This document shows positions 9,301 to 36,250 of a stretch of 42,306 nucleotides of DNA, piece by piece. The DNA comes from Myxococcales bacterium (GTDB lineage: Bacteria; Myxococcota_A; Polyangia; Polyangiales; Polyangiaceae). The notes beneath the pieces are model-generated. The model was given only the letters and a program-made list of their open reading frames with translations. It was not told where the DNA came from and did no database searches. Positions within the stretch are counted from its first letter, which is position 1; the number at the start of each line of letters is the position of its first letter. Both the position numbers and the translations under genes were made by a program. The DNA is taken from contig CAHJWM010000044.1 in NCBI GenBank assembly GCA_903642325.1, forward strand, positions 1 through 42,306, given 5' to 3'.

Positions 9301-10062
9301 ATGACGGAGATTGGGTCTCGAAGCAGGGCGCTGGTGGCGGTTCTGCGACCGCTGATCATCGCGCTGGGCGTGGTGCTGGGTCTGGAAATCCTTGCCCGGG
9401 CCGTGGTGCGCTCTTTCGAGATCAAGCATCAGGAAAAACGCATCACCGTGACCGGCTCGACCACGCGCCGGATCCGCTCGGATTTGATCGTATGGCACGC
9501 CCATTTACGCGCACAAAACGCGGACCTCACCGCCGCTTACAAAAAGATCGCGGCCGACGTGCCGGTCGTCCTGGAGTTCATTCGAGCGCGGGGCATGGCG
9601 GAGCCACAGATCACCGTATCGGCGGCTTCGATCACCGAAGTTCACCCGCGCAACGCCGAAGGCATGGTGCAAGACGAGGTCGTCGCCGCGTATGGCGCGC
9701 AGCAAGACATCGTGGTCGAGTCGAGCGACATCGCCAAGGTCGAATCGATCTCGCGGGAAGCCACCCAGCTGCTCGACCGTGGTGTGTACATTCAGTCGGA
9801 CGCCCCGCTTTACGTATATACGAAGCTTGGCCCACTCAAGCTTCAAATGTTGGCCGAGGCATCCAAAGACGCACGGCTCCGGGCGGAACAGATCGCGCGC
9901 AATACTGGCTCGCACCTGGGCGCGCTGATCACTGCGCGCATGGGCGTCTTGCAGGTGAACCCCAAATTTTCCACCGAAGTCTCGGGTGAGGGCAATAACG
10001 ACAAGAGCACACTCGAGAAGGACGCTTTCGCCGTCGTTACGGCCTCTTTCGAAATTCGTTAG
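9301..10062 (+). CDS. SIMPL-domain (DUF541) protein
   Basis: A 253-residue protein with one N-terminal membrane helix (about 15-32) and a SIMPL/DUF541 domain from about residue 47. Family features are 'ITVTGSTTRRIRSDLIVW' at the start, repeated alternating strands, and the C-terminal helix 'KDARLRAEQIARNTGSHLG' before 'FAVVTASFEI'. SIMPL proteins are envelope proteins of poorly known function; the E. coli member YggE is linked to oxidative stress tolerance. This one is probably anchored in the inner membrane and faces the periplasm. It stands alone between intergenic gaps. Confidence 0.85.
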   Translation: MTEIGSRSRALVAVLRPLIIALGVVLGLEILARAVVRSFEIKHQEKRITVTGSTTRRIRSDLIVWHAHLRAQNADLTAAYKKIAADVPVVLEFIRARGMAEPQITVSAASITEVHPRNAEGMVQDEVVAAYGAQQDIVVESSDIAKVESISREATQLLDRGVYIQSDAPLYVYTKLGPLKLQMLAEASKDARLRAEQIARNTGSHLGALITARMGVLQVNPKFSTEVSGEGNNDKSTLEKDAFAVVTASFEIR

Positions 10063-10250
10063 TGACTCTGCTCGCAAGTGCGTTCCGGATTTCGCGGCAA
10101 CAAGTGAACGAGGGCCGCAGAAATCTGCCAGCACGGCTCAGTTAGCCTCGATGCTCGATCGGTGCGACGCACGACAGCCCAGAACGGAGCCGGCACCCGT
10201 GCACTGAGCCCCTAGACGCGCCGAACCGAGCGGGCTACCGGTGCCCTTCC

Positions 10251-12485
10251 TTGCAATTCATTAAACCCCTAAATACCCCTGGCGCGGAAGTCGCGGCCGT
10301 CACCTCCGCGCTTTTGATCGCGCAGCAGGTCGCCGGCAAAGCGACGCGCGACGCGCTGTTCTTGTCCGCCTTTGGGGCCTCGTATTTGCCTTTTGCGATG
10401 GCCACGGGGGCGGTGTTGTCGCTCGGCGCGGTGCTCTGGTTATCGCGCTTGATGAGCCGCCATCCGCCCCGGGTCATCATGCCCGTCCTCTTTGCGATCA
10501 GCGCCTTCGGCTTCGCGGCGGAGTGGCTGCTCGAGCTCAGCGCCCCACGCGCGGCTGCCCTACTGGTCTATCTACACACTGCCCTGTTTGGACCAGCTAC
10601 CATTTCGACATTTTGGTCGCTGATCAACGAAAGCTTCGACCCACACGCGGCCAAGCGTGCCGTGGCGCGCATCGCAGGCGGCGGAACCCTGGGCGGCGTG
10701 CTCGGTGGTTTGACGTCGTGGCGCGCATCGACCTTGGTGCGACCGGCTACCGTGCTTTTGATTTTGGCCATCCTCAATGGCCTGGCCGTGGTCGGCACGC
10801 TCTGGATGCGAGCCCGCCGTGCGGGCGTGATGCCGGCGCCAGTCTCGAACACGGACCGCCCCTCGTCCGCGGAGACCGAGTCCGCGCTCGGCGCTTTGCG
10901 GGCCATGCCGTTCCTGCGAAACCTGGGTCTGCTCGTCGCGCTGGGTGCGGCGACGTCCGCGATTTTAGACTACCTGTTCAGCGTGCAAGCCGTGGCCGAG
11001 TTTGGCAAAGGCCCGGCCCTGCTCTCCTTTTTCTCCCTGTTTTGGCTGGGCGTGGGTGTGCTGTCGTTCCTGCTTCAGCTCTCGGTAGGCCGAGTCGCGC
11101 TCGAAAAACTAGGCCTTGCGGTGAGCATTGCCGTACTGCCCGGGCTGATTATCCTGGGCGGGGCGTTCGGACTAGCCATGCCCGGGTTGGTCAGTGCCTC
11201 CACCTTACGCGCATCCGATGCGGTGCAGCGCAACACTCTGTTTCGTTCCGCGTACGAGTTGCTGTACACACCCATTCCCGAAGAGCGCAAACGAGCAACC
11301 AAGGCGCTCATCGACGTCGGCTGTGACCGCCTGGGCACCGTGGTCGGCAGCGGATTGGCCTTGTTGGCGTTGGCAGCGTTTTCGCGTTCGCCAGGTCCTA
11401 TCTTGCTTGGTGCAGTGGTCGTTTTGGCGCTCGCCACGCTGCCGCTGACGCGTCAGCTCCACGTCGGCTACGTCACGGCGCTCGAGCAACAATTGAGGGA
11501 GGGCGCGGCCGAGAATCGAATCACGACTTATGAGGCGCTCACACGAGCAAGCCTCATAGGCTCGCCTCAGTCGGAGCGCGATCATCTCGTCGAACAAATT
11601 GAGGACTTTCAGCCAGGGGGGCTCACGGCCCTGCTCGAAACGAGCAATCCAGAGACCCGAGAGCAGCACAACAGCAACCCCGGTGTCCTCACTCGCCCAC
11701 CGCCGCCCGCCGAGGCCCAGCTCGGCGAGCTGCAGCACGTCCTCTCCACGAACGCCGTCGAGGTCAGGCAGGCCCTGGAGCACCTTCAGCCTCGCGGGCC
11801 CGCTGTCGCGTCCGCTATCCTGCTTTTAGCGCATCAGGATTTCCATCAGGCGGCGGTGACCGGGCTGGCCGCTATTGCTTCTTCGATTACCGGTCAGCTC
11901 GTGGATTCGCTGCTCGATCCGAGCCTGGATTTCGTGATCCGCCGCAGGATTCCGCGGGCCCTGCGCAATTGCTCGACGCAGCGCGCGGCGGACGGGTTGC
12001 TGCTAGGCCTCGGCGACGAACGCTTCGAGGTCCGCTACGAGTGCGGGCGGGCGCTGGTGAAGGTGACCAGCGTCCAAGCCGACTTGACCATCCCGCGGGA
12101 AAAGGTGTTCGAAGCGATCCAGCGGGAGCTGCAAGCGGGCAAGCGGTTGCTGAGTGGGATGACCTCGCACTTCGACGAGGACCCACATGGAGACGAGCAG
12201 CACGCCCTCGTAGACAGTCTGATGCGGGACCGCGTCGACCGCACGCTCGAACATGTGTTCACTATCCTTTCTCTGAACCTCGAACGCGAACCTTTGCGCA
12301 TGGCGTTCCGCGCGCTGCACCATCAGAACACCGCCTTCCGAGGTACCGCGCTCGAATATTTGGACACGGTGCTGCCCGCGGAAATCCGGCACATCGTCTG
12401 GCCCTACCTGGGTGAAGCGGCGCCACTGCCCACGGCCCGAAGCCCGCGCGAGCTCTTGGCCGAGCTGGCCCGCGCCGGCACTTGA
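10251..12485 (+). CDS. ATP:ADP-translocase-like / MFS membrane protein with HEAT-like C-terminal domain
   Basis: A 744-residue protein. The first 400 or so residues hold about ten hydrophobic helices and resemble the nucleotide translocase (NTT, COG3202-like) branch, with 'GKATRDALFLSAFGASYLP' near the N-terminus and 'RSAYELLYTPIPEERKRATKALIDVGCDRLGT' in the centre. From about residue 490 on, the protein is soluble and helical with HEAT-like repeats ('ALEHL', 'VASAILLLAHQ', 'RIPRALRNCSTQRA'). Similar fusions are annotated in delta-proteobacteria and Myxococcota; the substrate is unknown. The start is a TTG at 10251 with no clear ribosome site, and no better upstream in-frame start is visible. 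It is probably not an energy-parasite ADP/ATP exchanger. Confidence 0.75.
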   Translation: MQFIKPLNTPGAEVAAVTSALLIAQQVAGKATRDALFLSAFGASYLPFAMATGAVLSLGAVLWLSRLMSRHPPRVIMPVLFAISAFGFAAEWLLELSAPRAAALLVYLHTALFGPATISTFWSLINESFDPHAAKRAVARIAGGGTLGGVLGGLTSWRASTLVRPATVLLILAILNGLAVVGTLWMRARRAGVMPAPVSNTDRPSSAETESALGALRAMPFLRNLGLLVALGAATSAILDYLFSVQAVAEFGKGPALLSFFSLFWLGVGVLSFLLQLSVGRVALEKLGLAVSIAVLPGLIILGGAFGLAMPGLVSASTLRASDAVQRNTLFRSAYELLYTPIPEERKRATKALIDVGCDRLGTVVGSGLALLALAAFSRSPGPILLGAVVVLALATLPLTRQLHVGYVTALEQQLREGAAENRITTYEALTRASLIGSPQSERDHLVEQIEDFQPGGLTALLETSNPETREQHNSNPGVLTRPPPPAEAQLGELQHVLSTNAVEVRQALEHLQPRGPAVASAILLLAHQDFHQAAVTGLAAIASSITGQLVDSLLDPSLDFVIRRRIPRALRNCSTQRAADGLLLGLGDERFEVRYECGRALVKVTSVQADLTIPREKVFEAIQRELQAGKRLLSGMTSHFDEDPHGDEQHALVDSLMRDRVDRTLEHVFTILSLNLEREPLRMAFRALHHQNTAFRGTALEYLDTVLPAEIRHIVWPYLGEAAPLPTARSPRELLAELARAGT

Positions 12486-12595
12486 GCCAGTTTCGAACGG
12501 CAAACATCGCCGCCATCGCCACGTAAATCAACGGATAAGCGAGCGGCTGAATTGGTCCGGGCCACACGGTGCGAATTCGATGCTGATCGGGTAGT

Positions 12596-13729
12596 ATGCG
12601 GGAAGTGACGGTTGGCTTTTCGGTGCTGCGGGCGGCCGGGCAGGCGCGCGCCGGGGTGCTGCATACCCGCCGCGGCGACATCCCCACGCCGGTATTCATG
12701 CCCGTGGCTACGCGCGCCGGCTTCCGTCACATCTCGATGGACGATGCGCGAAGCACGGGCGCTGCCATCATCCTATCGAACACGTATCACCTTCTAGATC
12801 AGCCCGGGCCCGAGGTTTTTGCCACCTTTGGGGGCATTCATCAATTCATGAGTTGGTCCGGGGCCGTCCTGACCGACAGCGGCGGCTATCAGATTTTTTC
12901 GCTGCCAGGTGAGCGCCGCATCGACGAGCGCGGCGCGCATTTCCGGCTTCCGAGCGGCCGCCGTCATCTGCTCACTCCTGAGTCGAGCATCGAGATGCAA
13001 CAGGCCATCGGTAGCGACATCATGATGGCACTGGACGTGTGCGTGCCTTCTGACCGTGACGAGGGGCGCACGCGTGACGCCATGATCACGACCCATGCCT
13101 GGGCGAAACGCAGCCTCGAGACACACGCGCTCCACCGTGCTGGGCAAGCGTTGTTCGGCATCGTTCAAGGCGGCGTACACCCGGCCTTGCGCGAAGAGAG
13201 CACGGCCGCCATCGGCGCGTTGCCGTTCGACGGCTTTGCGATTGGCGGCCTGGCCGTGGGTGAGACACGCGCCGAGCGTGAAGCCATGACCCTGCTTTGC
13301 GCCCGCGCGTTACCCCCACACAAGCCGCGTTACCTGATGGGCGTCGGGACACCAGTGGATCTGTTGGAAGCCGTAGAGCGGGGGGTGGATATGTTCGACT
13401 GTATTTTGCCCACCAAGATGGCCCAGCAGGGCTGGGCTTACACCTTTCAGGGCGTGCTGGAAGCTAAGCGCCCGGCAATGCGGCATGCGGACGGGCCGCT
13501 CGAGCTCGACTGCGATTGCTTGGCGTGCAAGACGCAACCGCTCGCCTACATTCACCACCTTCTGCGGGTGGGTAGTGCGCAGGGCGTGCGGTGGCTGGCC
13601 ATTCATAACCTCCATCACACTCAACGATTGATGACCCGCGCCCGAGACGCCATCCTCTCTGACGGCTGGCCGCCGTTTTATGCCGAGCTACGCGAGCGCT
13701 TAGCGCAGCGGATCAAGTGCCCTTGCTGA
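12596..13729 (+). CDS. tgt: tRNA-guanine transglycosylase (queuine tRNA-ribosyltransferase)
   Basis: A 377-residue TIM-barrel enzyme that exchanges guanine-34 for the queuosine precursor preQ1 in GUN-anticodon tRNAs. The general-base region is 'LTDSGGYQIFSL' with D94, the nucleophile is D268 in 'GVDMFDCILPT', and the zinc site is C306-x-C308-x2-C311 with H337, the same spacing as E. coli Tgt. After the nucleophile the usual 'TRNARNG' is 'TKMAQQG', and the base-binding 'DECTP' is 'DVCVP', so the substrate loop differs from E. coli. Other queuosine genes are not in the window. Confidence 0.92.
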   Translation: MREVTVGFSVLRAAGQARAGVLHTRRGDIPTPVFMPVATRAGFRHISMDDARSTGAAIILSNTYHLLDQPGPEVFATFGGIHQFMSWSGAVLTDSGGYQIFSLPGERRIDERGAHFRLPSGRRHLLTPESSIEMQQAIGSDIMMALDVCVPSDRDEGRTRDAMITTHAWAKRSLETHALHRAGQALFGIVQGGVHPALREESTAAIGALPFDGFAIGGLAVGETRAEREAMTLLCARALPPHKPRYLMGVGTPVDLLEAVERGVDMFDCILPTKMAQQGWAYTFQGVLEAKRPAMRHADGPLELDCDCLACKTQPLAYIHHLLRVGSAQGVRWLAIHNLHHTQRLMTRARDAILSDGWPPFYAELRERLAQRIKCPC

Positions 13730-25166: not shown

Positions 25167-25292
25167 TCATCGTCCGGTGAAGGCGCGGCTCGACGCCGAA
25201 GGCTAAGACGCGTTCAGCCGTGGCCGGTGACCATGCAATTCACCCAGAATAAACGCACCTCGCCGCCCTCGCCCTGCCGAGCGGGCGGTGGC

Positions 25293-26798
25293 ATGGTCAA
25301 CGAATCGCCCATGCCGCTGACCATCACCTTCGACAACAGTTACGCTCGCCTCCCGGAGCGCTTTGCGGCGCGAGTTGCGCCCACGAAGGTGCGCGAGCCG
25401 CGCATCATCAAGGTCAACTATCCGCTTGCGGAGCTGCTCGGGCTCGACCCTGCCCAGTTGGATTCGCCGGAAGGGGCGCAAATTTTAGCGGGCAACGTCG
25501 TGTCCGAAGGGGCCGCGTCGATTGCGCTCGCGTACGCCGGGCACCAGTTCGGCGGGTTCTCGCCGCAGCTGGGTGACGGGCGAGCAATATTGCTCGGGGA
25601 GGTGCTGGCGACCGACGGAACGCGAAAGGATATTCAGCTGAAGGGTGCCGGGCCAACCCCGTTCTCGCGTCGTGGTGACGGGCGCGCGGCGCTCGGTCCG
25701 GTGCTGCGTGAGTACATCGTGAGCGAGGCCATGGCCGCGCTCGGCGTGCCCACCACCCGTTCGCTCGCCGCGGTTGCCACCGGCGAGACGGTGGTGCGCG
25801 AGCAGCGCCTGCCCGGCGCCGTCCTGACGCGCGTGGCGGCCAGCCATATGCGCGTGGGAACCTTCGAGTTTTTCGCGGCACGTGACGACCGCGAAGCCTT
25901 GTCGATGTTGACGTCGTACGCACTGGCTCGGCACTACCCGCTTTCAGCGGAGAAGCACGACAGCGCGCAGAACGAAGCCCTGCGCCTGCTCGAGTGCGTG
26001 GTCGAGGCGCAGGCAACCCTCGTCGCGCGTTGGCTCGGCATCGGTTTCGTGCACGGGGTGATGAATACCGACAACACGGCCATTTCAGGAGAAACGATCG
26101 ATTATGGGCCGTGCGCATTTTTGGACGAGTACGACCCGAACAAGACCTTCAGCTCCATTGATCATGGCGGTCGCTACGCGTTCGGCAATCAACCGCGAGT
26201 GGCGCAGTGGAACTTAGCGCGTTTTGCCGAAACGCTCTTGCCGCTGATCGCCGATGAAGAGGACGAGGCTGCGCGCTTGGCGACCGAGCGCCTTCAGCGT
26301 TTTCCCGGCGTGTTCGAGGCCGCTCGTGCGCGCGTGATGAGCGCCAAGCTCGGGCTCGTTAGCGAGCGAGAAGAGGACGCGTTGCTCGTCGCGGATTTGC
26401 TGCAACGCCTTGCCGCGAATGACGTCGATTACACCGTGTTTTTTCGCAGCCTGTGCGCCGCCGCCGAGGACCGCGCCGCCGACGTACAGACTGCGGCGCT
26501 TTTTACGAGCCCGAACGCGTTTCACGAGTGGGCTGCGCCCTGGCGGCGACGGCTGGCGAGCGACGAGCGAACGCCGCAAGCGCGAGCGCAAGCGATGCGG
26601 CGTGAGAACCCCGCCTTCATTCCGCGCAATCATCGCATCGAACAAGCCATCGCGGCGGGCGGGCGCGGGGACTTCCGGCCATTCGAGACCCTGGTGCGCC
26701 TGCTCGCTCGCCCTTTCGACGATCAGCCCGAGCTCGCGGAGCTCGCTAACCCGCCCTTGCCCGATGAGCGGGTGCAGCAAACGTTCTGCGGCACCTAG
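25293..26798 (+). CDS. selO: SelO/YdiU family protein AMPylase
   Basis: About 501 residues of pseudokinase fold that transfers AMP from ATP to Ser/Thr/Tyr of target proteins, linked to redox stress. Family motifs are '[24 protein letters not shown]', '[18 protein letters not shown]', 'PTTRSLA', '[23 protein letters not shown]' and '[10 protein letters not shown]'. The C-terminus ends in 'FCGT', keeping the terminal redox Cys that is selenocysteine in animal SelO. Start uncertain: ATG 25293 or 25311 fit the family length better than the GTG at 25227, which adds a Pro/Arg-rich tail. Confidence 0.93.
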
Positions 26799-28222: not shown

Positions 28223-28378
28223 ACGAGCTCGAGCGTAGCGCGGGCGGGCCGCGCCAACGAGCCATTTACCGAGGTGCTCGATGGCCGGCTTTGCGTGCCG
28301 CGTTCGTGGGCGAGGGCCGCTTGCGCCGGGCGTCGTGCTGCGCCACCGTGCCGGCCGAGCCATGGCGGAGAGAATCCA

Positions 28379-29557
28379 CTGACCGACACAACTCACTTCG
28401 ACGCGGTGGTCGTCGGCGGTGGCCCTGCAGGCAGCCTGTGCGCGCGGCGGCTGGTGCGAGCCGGCCTGAACGTCCTGGTGCTCGACCGGCACGCGTTTCC
28501 TCGCGTGAAGCTATGCGGCGGCTGGCTGAGCCCCATGGTTTGGGACGTGCTCGAGCTCTCGCCGACCGAGTACCCTGGAGGCCTTTGGCCGTGGTCACGG
28601 TGCCACGTGCAGCACGGGGGCAGGCTGCGCACGTTCGAAGGCAGCGGACACTTCATTCGTCGCTACGAGTTCGACGACTTCTTGCTGCGCCGTAGCGGCG
28701 CCACGGTCACTCAACACGCGCTGCGGAAGATCGAGCGACGCGAAGATCACTGGCTGCTGGACGATCAGTTCCAGACGCGTCTACTGGTGGGCGCGGGCGG
28801 GACCCATTGTCCAGTTGCGCGCCAGCTTTTCGCGAGCAAACGCGTTAAGCCCGTTGCGGCACAGGAGGTCGAGCTCGTGGTGGGCTCCGCTGCCGTCGCC
28901 GCCACGCGCGTGGGTCGAGATGGCGAGCCGGAGCTCTTGCTGCATGATGACCTCGGCGGCTACTCCTGGAACGTGCCAAAAGGCGAGTGGCTGAACGTGG
29001 GTACCGGCACCTCCGAACCGCGCGAGGTGCTCGCCGCCTGGTCGGCTGCGCGCGAGCTCTTCACGAATGCAGGTCACCTGCCCGAGGCCGCCATCGATGG
29101 TTTGAAAGCAGCCAAAGGCCATTCGTATTATCTGTTCGATCCCTCGAACCTGAACGATTGTGCGCGAGATGGCGCGCTCCTCATCGGTGACTCTCTCGGG
29201 CTCGCTCACCCGCTGACTGCCGAGGGCATACTGCCGGCTCTTTTGTCGAGCAAGCTGGCGGCAGACGCCATCATTGGCGGGACCGTCAGCCGCTACCCTT
29301 CTCGATTGGCCGAACACCCGCTCATGCGCGACTATGCGCTGGCCGCCGAGCTGCTCGCGGCCGGGATCGCCCTGCGGAACCGCGGCCGCGACCGAGCGTG
29401 GTCTCTGCCCAGCTCGAAAACCGTAACGCGGCTCACGCAAGCGGCAACGGCGCGCGCATTCGCCTGGATGTTTTCTGGTCACCCGATTCCGCACGCCGGC
29501 GTGTGGCGTGCCCTGTTGCGTAAAGCTCACTTCCTCACCCGTTCTAACCCCACATGA
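28379..29557 (+). CDS. FAD-dependent oxidoreductase, geranylgeranyl-reductase type
   Basis: About 392 residues with an N-terminal FAD site ('FDAVVVGGGPAGSLCARRL'), the family motif 'RVKLCGGWLSP' and the second flavin motif 'GALLIGDSLGLAHPLTAEGILPAL'. This group reduces isoprenoid or fatty-acyl double bonds. The next gene, a CFA-synthase-like methyltransferase, overlaps it as ATGA, so the two probably act on one lipid. No ATG, GTG or TTG lies in the expected place. A CTG at 28379 has GGAGAG six bases upstream. In-frame GTGs at 28274 and 28295 would add Arg-rich tails. A six-codon frame (ATG 28362) ends on this CTG as CTGA. Confidence 0.85.
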   Translation: MTDTTHFDAVVVGGGPAGSLCARRLVRAGLNVLVLDRHAFPRVKLCGGWLSPMVWDVLELSPTEYPGGLWPWSRCHVQHGGRLRTFEGSGHFIRRYEFDDFLLRRSGATVTQHALRKIERREDHWLLDDQFQTRLLVGAGGTHCPVARQLFASKRVKPVAAQEVELVVGSAAVAATRVGRDGEPELLLHDDLGGYSWNVPKGEWLNVGTGTSEPREVLAAWSAARELFTNAGHLPEAAIDGLKAAKGHSYYLFDPSNLNDCARDGALLIGDSLGLAHPLTAEGILPALLSSKLAADAIIGGTVSRYPSRLAEHPLMRDYALAAELLAAGIALRNRGRDRAWSLPSSKTVTRLTQAATARAFAWMFSGHPIPHAGVWRALLRKAHFLTRSNPT

Positions 29558-30702
29558 ATCCCCTACTCAACGCGTTCTCGAGCTTGACCGCCGCTCAGGC
29601 GGAACGCACCGTGCGTGGCTTACTCGACGCCGCCGACGTTCGCGTCGGGGGCGATCGACCGCAGGACATTCGAGTCCACAGCGCAGCTTTTTACAGCCGC
29701 GTGCTCCGTGACGGCCGTTTGGGAGTCGGCGAATCGTATCTGGAGGGTGAGTGGGACGCGGTCGAGCTGGATTGCTTCATCGCGCGCGTGCTCGAAGCTC
29801 GACTCAACGAGCAGGTACAGGACTGGCGCACTATCCTTTATGTCGTAGCGGCGCGTGCGGGCAACTTCCAGAAAGTATCGCGGGCTTTCCGCTCGGTAGA
29901 GCGGCACTACGACATTGGCAACGATTTGTACGAGGCCATGCTCGGCGAAACCTTGGCTTACACGTGCGCTTATTGGAAGGGAGCCGAAACCCTCGACCAA
30001 GCCCAACGCGCGAAGTTCGAGCTCGTTTGCCGCAAGCTTTCACTGCGCCCGGGCATGAAAGTGCTGGAGCTCGGTTGCGGCTGGGGAAGCTTCGCCAAGT
30101 TTGCCGCAGAGCGTTACGGTGTAGAAGTGACGGGCTACACGGTCTCCAAAGAGCAAATAGCGTTGGGCCAGCGGTTGTGCCGCGGGCTGCCGGTCGAGCT
30201 TCGTTTACAAGATTACCGGATGGCGAGCGGCTCATTCGACCGCGTGCTCTCGATTGGCATGATGGAGCACGTGGGCCACAAAAATTATCGCAATTACTTC
30301 GAAACAGTCGACCGTTGTCTGAAGCCCGGAGGCGTTGCCTTCGTGCACACGATAGGCAGCAACGTCAGTGAGACGCTGATCGACTCATTTTACCACAAGT
30401 ATCTATTTCCGAATGCGCTGATTCCCTCCTTGGCGCAGTTAACGCGCGCCATGGAGGGGCTATTCGTGCCGGAAGACGTGCATAATATCGGCCCGCACTA
30501 CGATGCGACACTGATGGCCTGGCACGCGAACTTCGAGGCGGCATGGCCGGCTCTGCGCACCCATTACGATGAGCGTTTTCACCGCCTCTGGCGCTTCTAT
30601 CTGCTCTCTTCAGCCGGCTCGTTTCGCGCGCGCTTCACCCAGCTCTACCAGCTCGTGCTCACCAGGCCGGGGACCGCACAGCCCCCGTCGATCCGTGACT
30701 AG
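29554..30702 (+). CDS. cyclopropane-fatty-acyl-phospholipid synthase family methyltransferase
   Basis: A 382-residue SAM-dependent enzyme of the same length as E. coli Cfa. It has the lipid-binding N-terminal part ('GESYLEGEWDAVELDCF'), the entry motif 'RHYDIGNDLYEAML', the SAM site 'VLELGCGWGSFA' and the bicarbonate-binding active-site residues C138, E238, H265, I267 and Y316, matching E. coli C139, E239, H266, I268 and Y317. It adds a methylene to cis double bonds of membrane phospholipid acyl chains; relatives also make methyl or methylene branches. The ATGA overlap with the flavoprotein suggests a two-step modification. Confidence 0.9.
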   Translation: MNPLLNAFSSLTAAQAERTVRGLLDAADVRVGGDRPQDIRVHSAAFYSRVLRDGRLGVGESYLEGEWDAVELDCFIARVLEARLNEQVQDWRTILYVVAARAGNFQKVSRAFRSVERHYDIGNDLYEAMLGETLAYTCAYWKGAETLDQAQRAKFELVCRKLSLRPGMKVLELGCGWGSFAKFAAERYGVEVTGYTVSKEQIALGQRLCRGLPVELRLQDYRMASGSFDRVLSIGMMEHVGHKNYRNYFETVDRCLKPGGVAFVHTIGSNVSETLIDSFYHKYLFPNALIPSLAQLTRAMEGLFVPEDVHNIGPHYDATLMAWHANFEAAWPALRTHYDERFHRLWRFYLLSSAGSFRARFTQLYQLVLTRPGTAQPPSIRD

Positions 30703-32566: not shown

Positions 32567-33211
32567 TCACTTGAGGGCGGCCGCACTGCTCGTGGGCGCC
32601 GCCATGCTCAGTTTTTGAACGGCTTCTTTGCCCACTTCGCGGACGGCTTCGTCGAGGGTAGCAGTCAATGTCTCGGCTAGGTTTTGAGCCGCGTCCGCGC
32701 CCTCGCGCGCCGCGACGCGCTGCTCTAAGTCTAGAGTGCGCTCGAGCAGCGAGCGGCGCTCGTTCCGCAGGCTGAAGGTAAGGGTGACGTGGGCCTTGAT
32801 CGGGCGGCCGCGCACCTCTTCGAAGGCGGTGAGCTCGACGTCGAGCGTCGGTGCCTCACCCGCGACGATGCGAGACAGCCCCCGCTCTTCGAACAAGTCG
32901 CGTTCCAGGGCGCGACGCAGATACGCTTCGGGAATTTCCGTCCAACGCCGATCCTCGTAAAACCCCATCTCGGAGCCGCCCAGGCGATACGCCACGCGCT
33001 CGTCCAGATGGGAGGCCGAAGAGACCTGGCCGAGCCTCAGCTCGTAGGGCTGCGCTGCCTTGTCGGAGGGCGCCGCATGCGTTGGCTCCGCGCTGAAATA
33101 GCGCGGCGTCACGACCTCGGCTTTGGACGTCAAGGCGCAGCCAATCAGCAATGCGCCGCCGCCGACGCCGAGAAACGGACGCACAGCCCTGTAAGCGGAC
33201 GACGGATTCAT
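32567..33211 (-). CDS. ABC-type transport auxiliary lipoprotein of the Mla/MCE operon
   Basis: A 214-residue lipoprotein: signal peptide with lipobox ending at Cys25 ('LLIGCAL'), then 'TPRYFSAEP', the start of the ABC_trans_aux/PqiC-like fold, with alternating strands and a helical end. It overlaps the MlaD stop as ATGA, the last gene of mlaEFD-lipoprotein. Such lipoproteins link the periplasmic MCE ring to the outer membrane. It is analogous to PqiC at 558-1217 but differs clearly in sequence. Length and position fit the family. Confidence 0.85.
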   Translation of the reverse strand: MNPSSAYRAVRPFLGVGGGALLIGCALTSKAEVVTPRYFSAEPTHAAPSDKAAQPYELRLGQVSSASHLDERVAYRLGGSEMGFYEDRRWTEIPEAYLRRALERDLFEERGLSRIVAGEAPTLDVELTAFEEVRGRPIKAHVTLTFSLRNERRSLLERTLDLEQRVAAREGADAAQNLAETLTATLDEAVREVGKEAVQKLSMAAPTSSAAALK

Positions 33212-34173
33212 TGCTTGACGCTCCTGGCGTGGCCTTTGAGCAGCATGTCGGGGTCGCGTTCGAGGTCATCCGCCAGGCGTTTGATGGAGTGGGCCGCGGC
33301 CCGCACCTCTCGCAGCGTGAGCTCCATCTCTGGGCCAAAGCTACGCGCCCCCCGGGCCACCTCTCCGATCGCGTCTGCACTGCGTTCGGCGTTGCGAAAC
33401 AGCCCTTGTTCGCTGTCCAGGCGCGTCAACAGCGCGTTGCTACGAACCAGCACGGCATTGAATTCCTTGAGGTTGCCTTCGGCGTCAGCGGAGAGCTGCG
33501 CCGCGTTCAATGCCTTGAGTTGGGTCGTGAGCTCGGACAACGACCCATTGGCCTGAGTCAATGTCTCCGCGGCGCGATCCGGGAGCCGCCCGGATTGAAT
33601 TTGCTCGGCGAGCAGCCGAATCTGGGTAACGGCCTTGGCCGCGTCATCTGCGATTTCCGGAAAGCGATTGGCGGTCTTCGTGACCGTGTCCTCGAGATTT
33701 TTCAGGGTCGACGAGGCAGTTGGGATGTAGTTCGGAGGCGTCTCGAAGGGCAGTGACTCGACGGGGTTGGTTTTGGAGTCGAAAAAATCGATCAGAATGA
33801 ATTTCACCCCGGTGATGCCAGTTTGCGCCAATTGCACTCGCAAGTCGGGGGACATTTTGGTCGGCTTCAGTCCCTCTCCCGGCACGCCGAGATCCAGCCG
33901 GCTCACCTTTTCTAGACTGAGCTCGCTCGTGACTTGCACGTGGCGCAGGTCGCGCGCGATATCGACGCCAGCAACGCGGCCCACCGTAACGCCTCGAAAT
34001 TTCACTGGCGACCCGAGCTCGAGGCCCTGCACCGATTCATCGAAGTAACTCACGAACTCCACGGTCTTTTTGCCCCAGCTCCGTGCGCCGAGCAGCAGCA
34101 GCGCGGCCAGCGCGACCCCGAAGCCGACGATCACGAACAGGCCGAGCTTCCAACGATTCGTAGCTATTGCCAC
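33208..34173 (-). CDS. mlaD: MlaD-like MCE-domain protein
   Basis: A 321-residue protein with an N-terminal membrane helix (about 11-29), one MCE domain ('VEFVSYFDESVQGLELGSPVKFRGVTVGRV', about 36-115) and a long helical C-terminal region predicted to form coiled coils. This is the substrate-binding subunit of the Mla-type ABC transporter, moving phospholipid between membranes. It overlaps the MlaF gene by 10 bp and the lipoprotein by 4 bp, so expression is coupled. Unlike E. coli MlaD (about 180 residues), it has the long helical tail of the needle-type MCE proteins. Confidence 0.9.
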   Translation of the reverse strand: MAIATNRWKLGLFVIVGFGVALAALLLLGARSWGKKTVEFVSYFDESVQGLELGSPVKFRGVTVGRVAGVDIARDLRHVQVTSELSLEKVSRLDLGVPGEGLKPTKMSPDLRVQLAQTGITGVKFILIDFFDSKTNPVESLPFETPPNYIPTASSTLKNLEDTVTKTANRFPEIADDAAKAVTQIRLLAEQIQSGRLPDRAAETLTQANGSLSELTTQLKALNAAQLSADAEGNLKEFNAVLVRSNALLTRLDSEQGLFRNAERSADAIGEVARGARSFGPEMELTLREVRAAAHSIKRLADDLERDPDMLLKGHARSVKQ

Positions 34174-34913
34174 TGGGGAATACTCGTTTCACGGTTGAAA
34201 AATCTGCGTACGCGTGGGTCGTCCGTCTCGCTGCGCAGCTTTTGTGGTTCGCCTTGCGCAATGATCGTGCGCGTGTCGCGGTCGAGCATGATGCAGTGCT
34301 TGCCAACTTTGAAAATGCTCTCGAGCTCGTGGGTCACCATCACCACGGTCAGCCCAAGATTGCGATTCAACGCCAAAATCAGCTCGTCGAGCTCGACTGC
34401 GCTGACCGGGTCCAAGCCCGCGGACGGCTCGTCGAGAAAAATGAGGTTCGGTTCGAACGCCATCGCCCGCGCGATCGCCGCGCGCTTGCGCATTCCGCCC
34501 GACAGCGCCGCGGGCAACTTGTCCTCGGAGCCTTCCAAGCCCACGAGCGCGAGCTTCGCTCGCACGATCGCCGACACCGCCTCGGGCGGTAGGTGTGTCC
34601 ATTCCTGCACGGCAAAGGCCACGTTTTCGCCCACCGTCATCGAGCTGAACAGGGCTCCAGACTGAAACATGACGCCGAAGCGGGGCGCCGCGCCCTCCAG
34701 GCGGGGCGCGCCAATGCCGGCGATTCGGATCTCGCCGGCCAGCGGCGTTTCTAGCCCTATCAGATGGCGCAGCAACGTCGACTTGCCGCAGCCGCTTCCG
34801 CCCAAGATGATGAAAATGTCGCCTCGTGGCACATCGAAGCTCGCATTGCGGAGCAGCGTCGTGTCCCCATAACCGATGCTGAGATCGCGCACCGTGATCA
34901 GCGGTTTGCTCAT
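34164..34913 (-). CDS. mlaF: MlaF-like ABC transporter ATPase
   Basis: A 249-residue ATP-binding subunit with Walker A 'GGSGCGKST' (38-46), the Q-loop 'VMFQSGALFSSMTV', signature 'ALSGGMRKRAAIARA', Walker B 'LIFLDEPSAGLDPVS' and the switch His 'VMVTHELES'. The spacing and 'GALF' text are typical of the MlaF/Mkl group. It couples ATP hydrolysis to lipid movement by MlaE. The ATG at 34913 overlaps the mlaE stop as ATGA; the longer frame to 35048 lies inside mlaE. Confidence 0.93.
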   Translation of the reverse strand: MSKPLITVRDLSIGYGDTTLLRNASFDVPRGDIFIILGGSGCGKSTLLRHLIGLETPLAGEIRIAGIGAPRLEGAAPRFGVMFQSGALFSSMTVGENVAFAVQEWTHLPPEAVSAIVRAKLALVGLEGSEDKLPAALSGGMRKRAAIARAMAFEPNLIFLDEPSAGLDPVSAVELDELILALNRNLGLTVVMVTHELESIFKVGKHCIMLDRDTRTIIAQGEPQKLRSETDDPRVRRFFNRETSIPQWQ

Positions 34914-36112
34914 AGTCCGAACAATGCCAGAAGCACGGTGAACAGCGCGTCCAGAACGATCAGCGCAAACAGGATAGAGACCACGGCGCTGGTCGTGCGC
35001 CGGCCGACGCCTTCCGCGCCACCCGAGGTAGCTAAGCCTTGCTGACAAGAGATGAGCGCGATCGTCGCACAGAACACGACGCCCTTGATGACGCCCGACA
35101 CGATGTCACTCGCTTTGACCGCGCTCTGCAGCTGGATCAAAAAACTGGTGGAAGTGATGTCCAGGCTGATCGAGGCTACTAATGCTCCGCCCAAAATGCC
35201 AATCGCATCCGCCATCAAGACTAGGATTGGCGCCACCAGAATCAGCCCCAACATGCGTGGGATGACCAGGTACGGCAGCGGTAAGAAGCCGAGCGTGCGC
35301 AAGGCGTCGACCTCCTCGGATACCTTCATCGTCCCTAACTCGGCCGCGAACGCCGCGCCCGAGCGGCCGCAGATGATGATCGCCATCATCAAGGGTCCAA
35401 GCTCACGGGTCATGGATACCCCGACTAGGTCGACCACGTAAATGTTGGCGCCGAATTGCTTCAGTTGCGCGGCGCTCTGATAAGCCATGACGAAGCCCAT
35501 CAAGAAGTTGATCAGCAGTACGATCGGCGCCGCGTCCGCGCCCGCCCGTTCCATCGTCCGGCCCACGTCGCGTAGGTTCAGGCTCTTCGGGTGCCTCAGC
35601 ACGTGCAGGGTTGAGGCCACTAGACGCCCGAGGAAATCCAGAATTTGGTTGATCTCCCCGACCACGCCGAGCGTCGCGCTGCCGATCTGCTCGATGGCGT
35701 TCACCGGGGGCCGCACGGGGCGCTTCTGACGCGTCTTACTGCGCCCGCCATATAGCTCGACGATACGCCGGACTTCCGCACTGCCTCCGCTGAACTCGCA
35801 AGCCACGCTACGTGTCCGGAGGTCGGTTCGGAACTGCACCAAGAGCGCCATGCAAGCGCCGTCGATCATCTGAATCTGCTCCAGGCTCAACTCCAGCTGA
35901 CGCACGCCCTCCACGTGCGTGAGCGTCTCGCTGATGCGCTTCCAGAGCGCGGCCGCATCGTCGATGGTAATGCGGCCGCCCAGCTCGACGCGCACGCTCG
36001 CGTCACCGGCTTCCACACGCTCCCAGGAGAAGCGCTGCAGCATGCCGACGACGACGCTGAGCCGCTCGTCGAAGACCATGGACGGGCGGTCGATGAGCTC
36101 GCTATCGTTCAT
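34910..36112 (-). CDS. mlaE: MlaE-like permease with N-terminal STAS domain
   Basis: About 400 residues: a STAS-like domain (about 20-125, with 'VRQLELSLEQIQMIDGACMALLVQF') fused to the MlaE permease. The permease part has 'NFLMGFVMAYQSAAQLKQFGANIYVVDLV', 'SMTRELGPLMMAIIICGRSGAAFAAELGTMKVSEEVDALRTLG' and 'YLVIPRML'. In E. coli the STAS partner MlaB is a separate protein; here it is joined to MlaE, so the ATPase regulator travels with the permease. The start is uncertain: ATG 36112 is my choice, but the frame is open to a TTG at 36184. First gene of the operon. Confidence 0.88.
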   Translation of the reverse strand: MNDSELIDRPSMVFDERLSVVVGMLQRFSWERVEAGDASVRVELGGRITIDDAAALWKRISETLTHVEGVRQLELSLEQIQMIDGACMALLVQFRTDLRTRSVACEFSGGSAEVRRIVELYGGRSKTRQKRPVRPPVNAIEQIGSATLGVVGEINQILDFLGRLVASTLHVLRHPKSLNLRDVGRTMERAGADAAPIVLLINFLMGFVMAYQSAAQLKQFGANIYVVDLVGVSMTRELGPLMMAIIICGRSGAAFAAELGTMKVSEEVDALRTLGFLPLPYLVIPRMLGLILVAPILVLMADAIGILGGALVASISLDITSTSFLIQLQSAVKASDIVSGVIKGVVFCATIALISCQQGLATSGGAEGVGRRTTSAVVSILFALIVLDALFTVLLALFGL

Positions 36113-36250
36113 GCGTGCCCAAAGGCCCATGAGCTCGATTGCGCGCGTGTCCAGCAGCTTAAGCGAGGTGACAAATTGCACCAAGCATGGCTCGCGCGGG
36201 CACCGTCGGTGCCACCGCGACCGGACTGAGCTCGCCCGCGTAGCGCTTTG

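Follow-up and report, generated by a model that had tools for sequence, protein, structure and literature searches.

Two overlapping genes in a 42,306-nucleotide stretch of DNA from a Myxococcales bacterium (the window, meaning this whole stretch) code for a geranylgeranyl reductase (GGR)-like flavoprotein, P0001, and a CFA-synthase-type methyltransferase, P0002. The pair is real, occurs widely among bacteria, and probably serves to form branched lipids. The reading that we favor, with reasonable though not full confidence, is a two-enzyme operon that would produce mid-chain methyl-branched membrane fatty acids. A branched-lipid pathway was also the original prediction, which is upheld as the likeliest reading by linkage of the two genes throughout a flavoprotein clade and by the GGR-type family and fold of the flavoprotein. 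The features of the locus are as follows.

28379–29557, forward strand: flavoprotein P0001, 392 residues, stop codon within the range; putative mid-chain methylene-fatty-acyl reductase
29554–30702, forward strand: CFA-synthase-type S-adenosylmethionine methyltransferase P0002, 382 residues
29554–29557, forward strand: ATGA overlap of start and stop codon, read from the sequence
28367–28372, forward strand: GGAGAG, possible ribosome-binding site six bases ahead of the CTG at 28379

Gene Borders and the Flavoprotein

The two frames were found where the original prediction had put them, joined by the ATGA overlap it described: the stop codon of P0001 (TGA) spans 29555–29557, and the ATG of P0002 begins at 29554. 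In the flavoprotein frame, no ATG, GTG, or TTG start was found where the relatives of P0001 begin. The CTG at 28379, which fits best with GGAGAG at 28367–28372, is probably the start codon.

Scans of P0001 against Pfam and NCBIfam matched GGR and FAD_binding_3-type models. The GG-red-SF model TIGR02032 aligns with residues 7–298 at 137.7 bits, below its cut-off of 158.8. Among three relatives scanned, L090 passes this cut-off (172.6), while L172 (155.6) and L046 (135.5) stay below. The AlphaFold2 model of P0001 has a mean pLDDT of 94.6. Structural re-alignment of the Foldseek matches with this model identified the GGR-like protein 3oz2 as closest (Z 34.7, 2.9 Å over 338 residues) and FixC of Fix/EtfABCX (7koe_C, Z 33.2) as second-best; the GGR from Sulfolobus (3atq) reached Z 31.2. 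By Foldseek E-value, PqsL and 3oz2 tied for the first rank. In outline, the predicted fold is also common to halogenases and hydroxylases, which ranked lower in the re-alignment; this breadth weighs against the branched-lipid reading. P0001 contains the motifs FPRVKLCGGW (residues 40–49), GYSWNVPK (194–201), and GDSLGLAHPLTAEGI (270–284). FAD-binding and YxW motifs, which we take to be GGR motifs, are present in addition to the predicted GGR fold. With TIGR02032 as the family match and GGR structures among the best folds, the description of P0001 as a geranylgeranyl-reductase-like flavoprotein stands. A plasmid search with P0001 returned nothing beyond one distant match.

The FixC match bears on two other readings. 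P0001 could be a FixC- or ETF-quinone-like electron transfer protein that sits beside a membrane methyltransferase and does not act on its product, as the Z score of 33.2 might suggest. Since the CFA reaction needs no electrons, such a dedicated partner would be left without a clear task, and we consider this role very improbable. Alternatively, the flavoprotein may desaturate the methylated chain further, yielding either a cyclopropene or a diene that serves as a precursor of a furan fatty acid. FixC is itself an oxidoreductase, and the sequence of a methyltransferase and an oxidative step is known from Rhodobacter, where, according to PMC7380195, UfaM makes 11-methyl-12-trans-18:1 and UfaD turns this compound into a diene. 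Such an oxidation sits poorly with GG-red-SF as the best family match and with two GGR-type proteins among the best structural matches, and we rate it as unlikely.

The Methyltransferase

P0002 matches NF008686, the curated model for cyclopropane synthases of the E. coli type, at 530.3 bits and passes the cut-off of 400. This observation counts against reading P0002 as a branch maker. The protein shares 47% identity with E. coli Cfa and 59–63% with enzymes from Chloroflexota and Lentisphaerota that are linked to such a reductase. Residues C139, E239, H266, I268, and Y317 of E. coli Cfa, which we take to be its bicarbonate site, align with C, E, H, I, and Y in P0002. The claim that this CFA-synthase homologue has all bicarbonate-site residues is therefore correct (5 of 5). 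Because the five positions are kept in linked and unlinked proteins alike (52 to 54 of 54 aligned proteins), they are uninformative as to whether the product is a ring or a branch. We also considered the neighbor of the bicarbonate tyrosine, H315 in P0002, as a marker of linked methyltransferases. Among E. coli-type rows, this position is H in 13, D in six, and E in one of 20 linked rows, and D316 occurs in 15 of 15 unlinked rows. The marker was rejected, as six linked rows have D and the Cfa of 5z9o has H.

The genome of the window contains two other full-length CMAS-like genes on contig C12, whose products are 33–36% identical to P0002 over 244–284 residues. No such flavoprotein was found in the stretch of C12 examined.

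The match to NF008686 is also what one would expect if P0002 were an ordinary cyclopropane synthase and P0001 reduced an isoprenoid such as menaquinone, a carotenoid, or a lipid chain, the two genes then being neighbors through operon packing and sharing no substrate. Isoprenoid reduction is established for members of the wider GGR flavoprotein family, and unlinked members of the P0001 clade exist. This possibility has to be weighed against the distribution of the pair.

Conservation in the Class, Order, and Genus

Of 192 genomes sampled from the class, 16 contain a P0001 orthologue (48–59% identity), not counting the window's own genome. In all 14 cases whose contig continues, the next gene downstream, on the same strand, codes for a P0002 homologue; at the other two loci (L008 and L018), the contig ends. 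The genome G079, which holds one of these two, also has a close P0002 homologue at a contig end (L129), so both ends may belong to one cut operon. Alignment A1 contains P0001 and 15 of the 16 orthologues (L018, cut at the contig end, was omitted), and alignment A2 contains P0002 and 13 of the 14 homologues (without L013, which is cut).

Closer to home the pair is rare. In the window's own order, one of 182 other genomes matches P0001 at E 1e-40 (G477, 40% identity); this locus also holds a CFA-type methyltransferase. None of the seven other listed genomes of the genus has a match at this threshold. The near-absence from the order weighs against the branched-lipid reading. Set against the class counts, these numbers show that the pair is patchy among close relatives and has thus been gained or lost often.

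The window's MlaE is 76–79% identical to that of two genus mates. On this basis the contig looks native, and contamination is disfavored. The window's Mla genes are retained in the genus mates G541, G536, and G539. Apart from one 25% SDR match in G539, the fetched stretches of these three genomes lack what flanks the pair in the window, and therefore no empty insertion site could be drawn.

Linkage across Phyla

The survey was extended beyond the class by a profile search of genome contigs with a 16-row P0001 alignment, which returned 78 loci, 64 of them at 100 bits or more. A locus counted as linked if a CFA-family methyltransferase lies no more than 600 bases from the flavoprotein and shares its strand. 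By this definition, 50 of the 64 family loci are linked, seven are unlinked, and seven are too near a contig edge to decide. The reductase comes first at 36 of the linked loci and the methyltransferase at 14, with a median gap of 12.5 bases between the called genes. An NTGA start, as in the window, is also possible in 10 of the 36 reductase-first relatives. For 43 of the linked loci, the record titles give a phylum, 11 phyla in all; the titles of the remaining seven give none. Single phylum assignments may be wrong because most of these loci come from metagenome-assembled genomes. Alignment A3 contains P0001 and 49 of 61 flavoproteins from the 64-locus set. No record titled Marinobacter or Desulfobacter was among the loci returned. 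The concern that the pair might not be conserved in relatives holds for the window's own order (1/182) but fails in the class (14/14) and beyond it (50/64).

The unlinked loci include two broken flavoproteins (L064 and L076), two records of Larkinella, one of Ginsengibacter, and L077. At L077, as at the undecided L080, a nearby methyltransferase lies on the opposite strand. For the Larkinella records and Ginsengibacter, the flavoprotein is present and no adjacent canonical Cfa was found; at E 1e-20, one short CMAS protein turned up per genome. These exceptions, like the opposite strands at L077 and L080, count against the branched-lipid reading.

More distant GGR-like loci served as controls. 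None has a CFA-family neighbor (0/13 in the class, 0/14 in the contig search, and 0/20 in Pseudomonadota, or 0/47 in all). The controls comprise the loci that were fetched: 13 in the class and, in Pseudomonadota, 20 of the 27 lower matches. These class and Pseudomonadota loci carry flanks about 1.5 kb long, and contig ends truncate some of the controls. Pseudomonadota is the phylum of L066; of 249 genomes surveyed there (that of L066 included), 10 have a flavoprotein at or above about 305 bits. Six of these flavoproteins belong to methyltransferase-first pairs, one of which is L066 itself; near the other four (L176–L179), no methyltransferase was seen.

The coupling of flavoprotein and methyltransferase is not chance. 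Packing of unrelated genes into one operon is hard to square with the occurrence of both gene orders, of several methyltransferase types, and of 11 named phyla. An isoprenoid reductase that merely adjoins a cyclopropane synthase is therefore an explanation to which we assign little probability.

The Flavoprotein Clade and Its Signature

In a tree of 118 flavoprotein rows, all 58 linked rows fall into one clade of 74 rows (SH-aLRT 97). These 58 rows represent 57 distinct genes, since L066 and L170 are the same gene. The clade also contains 10 unlinked rows and six rows at contig edges; outside, 0 of 44 rows are linked. The flavoproteins of the methyltransferase-first operons of Pseudomonadota (L170–L175) are inside. 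Rows with fewer than about 230 matched residues were skipped. L081, undecided in the 64-locus count, is linked in the tree set, for which a broader methyltransferase model was used. All trees in this study are quick trees with SH-aLRT support, no bootstrap, and long-branch warnings.

The clade carries a sequence signature. The string FPRVKLC[AGS]G is conserved partly by construction because the search patterns contained it; the residue that follows was free. This residue is tryptophan in 56 of the 58 linked rows and leucine in the other two. The resulting CxGW motif also occurs in six of six edge rows and nine of 10 unlinked rows of the clade; all rows outside lack it. The unlinked GGR-like rows have C-G-G-G, C-A-G-G, and similar sequences instead of C-x-G-W.

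Several Methyltransferase Partners

The partners of these flavoproteins occur on at least three branches of the CFA tree. The branch of the E. coli Cfa type comprises the partners from the window and from Myxococcota, Chloroflexota, Lentisphaerota, Calditrichota, and others. The methyltransferase-first branch is mostly from Pseudomonadota, and the short type comes from Nitrospinota and others. Among Bacteroidota, the flavoprotein of L055 adjoins a short CMAS protein, that of L058 lies about 3.5 kb from one, and the partner at L045 is of the E. coli type.

Within the E. coli-type branch (44 rows), P0002 belongs to a cluster of 23 rows, 20 of which are linked, although the support of 86 is not strong. 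A subset of 18 rows has a support of 98 and contains 15 linked rows. E. coli Cfa itself is found in a group of seven rows (support 93) with no linked member, and a separate group of eight rows (support 100) is wholly unlinked. The separation is incomplete on both sides: no such reductase was found up to about 1.5 kb from L130 and L132, which belong to the P0002 cluster, and the linked enzymes L045, L047, and L069 fall outside of the cluster. Both points weigh against the branched-lipid reading. The first methyltransferase tree omitted the linked L054, L057, and L067 and the unlinked L153 and L156. The second also omitted L003, L055, L087, L098, L118, L119, and L120, which are long or partial, and eight rows were added.

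The short methyltransferases (about 305 residues) are without the N-terminal part of CFA synthases. At 17 of 18 short-type loci, the flavoprotein gene is immediately preceded by a small gene whose conserved part codes for about 110 residues. The contig of the 18th locus (L074) begins upstream of the flavoprotein, hence the count is 17 of 17 where upstream sequence exists. Outside of this count stands L087, a methyltransferase-first locus whose short methyltransferase sits on a long branch among the short type in the first tree and which shows no N-domain gene. The small gene overlaps the flavoprotein gene by four bases at 13 of the 17 loci. All five small proteins scanned match DUF7884 (24.8 to 40.4 bits), four of them above the cut-off of 27. 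Two full-length methyltransferases, L066 (30.5 bits) and L172 (24.4, below the cut-off), match the same model at their N-terminus; no match was found in P0002, L084, or E. coli Cfa at E 0.01. When the 17 small proteins were combined into a model, it matched the N-terminus of full-length partners from Pseudomonadota with at best 23.1 bits and gave weak scores with E. coli Cfa (7.2) and P0002 (7.1 bits). Profile comparison of the small proteins with the N-terminus of E. coli-type enzymes returned a probability of 44%. With the N-domain gene upstream and the short methyltransferase as partner, the order at these loci is therefore N-domain, reductase, catalytic domain.

A reductase gene enclosed by the two parts of a split CFA synthase is difficult to reconcile with operon packing. 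When the neighbors of the 50 linked loci were clustered, the CFA N-domain was the most widely shared among the 14 largest groups (17 loci), and the other shared genes of these groups were confined almost wholly to Nitrospinota-type loci. This result also argues against a flavoprotein that oxidizes the methylated chain.

Proposed Function

Cfa transfers a methyl group to a cis double bond, after which loss of a proton closes the cyclopropane ring. In the branched-lipid pathway that we favor, the methyltransferase would likewise methylate a phospholipid acyl chain at its cis double bond, with S-adenosylmethionine as the methyl donor. Deprotonation of the resulting carbocation would then yield a methylene (or methyl-alkene) chain, either in place of a cyclopropane or alongside it. 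Two relatives set precedents for this step: proton loss from the methylated acyl chain leads to a methylene product with TmpB (PMC7791843) and to a methyl-alkene with UfaM (PMC7380195, PMC10876521). Finally, the GGR-like flavoprotein with reduced FAD would saturate this isolated double bond and leave a saturated methyl branch. We read the flavoprotein as a reductase of the unsaturated product because a dedicated GGR-type enzyme adjoins a CFA-family methyltransferase. The reduction step is modeled by analogy on GGRs acting on isoprenoid chains, and the overall scheme would resemble the published TmpBA.

A broader proposal is that the CxGW clade as a whole consists of phylum-spanning mid-chain methylene-fatty-acyl reductases. 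These would have been coupled repeatedly with different CFA-family methyltransferases (the E. coli Cfa type, the methyltransferase-first type of Pseudomonadota, the short type, and the short CMAS of Bacteroidota) and, in Nitrospinota and others, would lie between the pieces of a split synthase. This generalization is plausible but tentative, and we hold it with less confidence than the reading of the window pair. If it is true, many genes annotated as cyclopropane synthases, including that of the window, would be branch makers. Where a gene with this annotation lies next to such a flavoprotein, the annotation may be wrong.

Comparison with Known Systems

The kind of pathway proposed here has already been published. 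In 2021, Blitzblau et al. (PMC7791843) reported tmpBA, a ten-methyl-palmitate operon from gammaproteobacteria and Desulfobacteraceae, in which TmpA is similar to anaerobic archaeal geranylgeranyl reductases. The original prediction had presented a GGR-type reductase as a different solution; in view of tmpBA, this is not supported. The window pair resembles this pathway, in which methylation but not the GGR-type reduction was seen in the hosts used: four of five tmpBA operons produced 10-methylenepalmitate in E. coli, none gave the reduced product, and TmpA yielded no 10-methylpalmitate in E. coli and was inactive in yeast (PMC7791843). The inactivity of TmpA counts against the branched-lipid reading. 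The linkage-defined CxGW clade includes named isolates (Larkinella and Ginsengibacter) that could serve as test subjects besides the inactive TmpA.

Among the matches listed in searches of the open-access literature, we found no other report of a methyltransferase/GGR-type pair and no fatty-acid profile of the named carrier Larkinella. A search for 10-methyl lipids of myxobacteria gave a Streptomonospora report and no profile of a carrier, and passages from the 11-methyl lipid literature around Nitrospira mention no such reductase gene. Branched fatty acids of the 10-methyl and similar mid-chain types are lipid biomarkers. They are also candidates for lubricants, as noted in PMC7791843.

TmpBA and the window pair share the arrangement as a two-gene operon for a CFA-family methyltransferase and a GGR-like flavoprotein, and methylation followed by reduction is proposed for both. 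They differ in gene order, which PMC7791843 reports as a means to tell tmp from bfa: tmpBA is methyltransferase-first, as are 14 of the 50 linked relatives, while the window pair is reductase-first. Furthermore, P0002 belongs to the E. coli Cfa subfamily, whereas the methyltransferase-first enzymes of Pseudomonadota (L066, L073, and L171–L175) occupy another branch of the CFA tree. Because gene order and methyltransferase branch differ, and with TmpA and TmpB compared by description only, we do not file the window pair as a member of TmpBA.

BfaAB, which makes tuberculostearic acid in actinobacteria, also combines a methyltransferase with a separate flavoprotein. BfaA is of another flavoprotein family than TmpA (PMC7791843), in agreement with what had been predicted for the tuberculostearic acid partner; the models matched by P0001 in the Pfam and NCBIfam scans are of the GGR and FAD_binding_3 types. 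The UfaM-UfaD-UfaO pathway likewise relies on a CFA-family methyltransferase and later redox steps on the methylated chain, but comprises three enzymes, is oxidative, and ends in a furan fatty acid, as described in PMC7380195. E. coli Cfa resembles P0002 in subfamily (NF008686), identity (47%), and bicarbonate residues, but its gene is flanked by punC and ribC with no GGR-like flavoprotein, and it sits among unlinked rows of the tree. The archaeal GGRs 3oz2 and 3atq share with the P0001 model the predicted fold over most of the chain as well as the FAD-binding and YxW motifs, at an identity of 18–19% over the structural alignment. Beyond what the available part of PMC7791843 describes, the present analysis adds the breadth across phyla, the variety of methyltransferase partners, the CxGW signature, and the split synthase.

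Split CFA synthase around the reductase gene

In short-type loci, the methyltransferase partnered with the flavoprotein (about 305 residues) lacks the N-terminal part of CFA synthase. A separate gene for this domain (DUF7884-like) lies upstream of the flavoprotein in all 17 short-type loci with upstream sequence (L068, L079, L083, L085, L086, L089-L097, L099-L101), and the gene order is CFA N-domain, reductase, catalytic domain.

Flavoprotein homologues elsewhere

Close flavoprotein homologues occur in the Bacteroidota strains Larkinella knui (L046), Larkinella soli (L058), and Ginsengibacter hankyongi (L062), each of which encodes one short CMAS-family protein (E 1e-20). This gene lies 3.5 kb from the flavoprotein in L. 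soli and is not found within 4 kb of it in the other two strains. For four CxGW-clade flavoproteins from Pseudomonadota (L176-L179), in which the motif reads KPCAGW, the flanks of about 1.5 kb hold no CFA-family methyltransferase gene. Distant GGR-like proteins of rumen and gut Bacteroidales carry FPRVKLC[AG]G with L, V, or M as the next residue; no methyltransferase neighbor was seen for these genes (L102-L104, L106, L107, L109-L111, L113).

Other genes of the same genome

Another contig of the genome (C12, locus L037) carries two CMAS-family genes:

9435-10961, (-), CMAS-family gene
11971-13131, (+), CMAS-family gene

They form a divergent pair spaced by about 1 kb, and no GGR-like flavoprotein adjoins them. 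One of the proteins (508 residues) has a hydrophobic N-terminal extension. The window itself also contains:

25227-26798, (+), SelO-type protein adenylyltransferase (PF02696, 390 bits)
32567-36184, (-), putative Mla-like lipid-transport genes, named by reading translations

The flanks of the reductase-methyltransferase pair were not found in the fetched stretches of three genus mates (G541, G536, and G539); the Mla-like genes are kept in all three.
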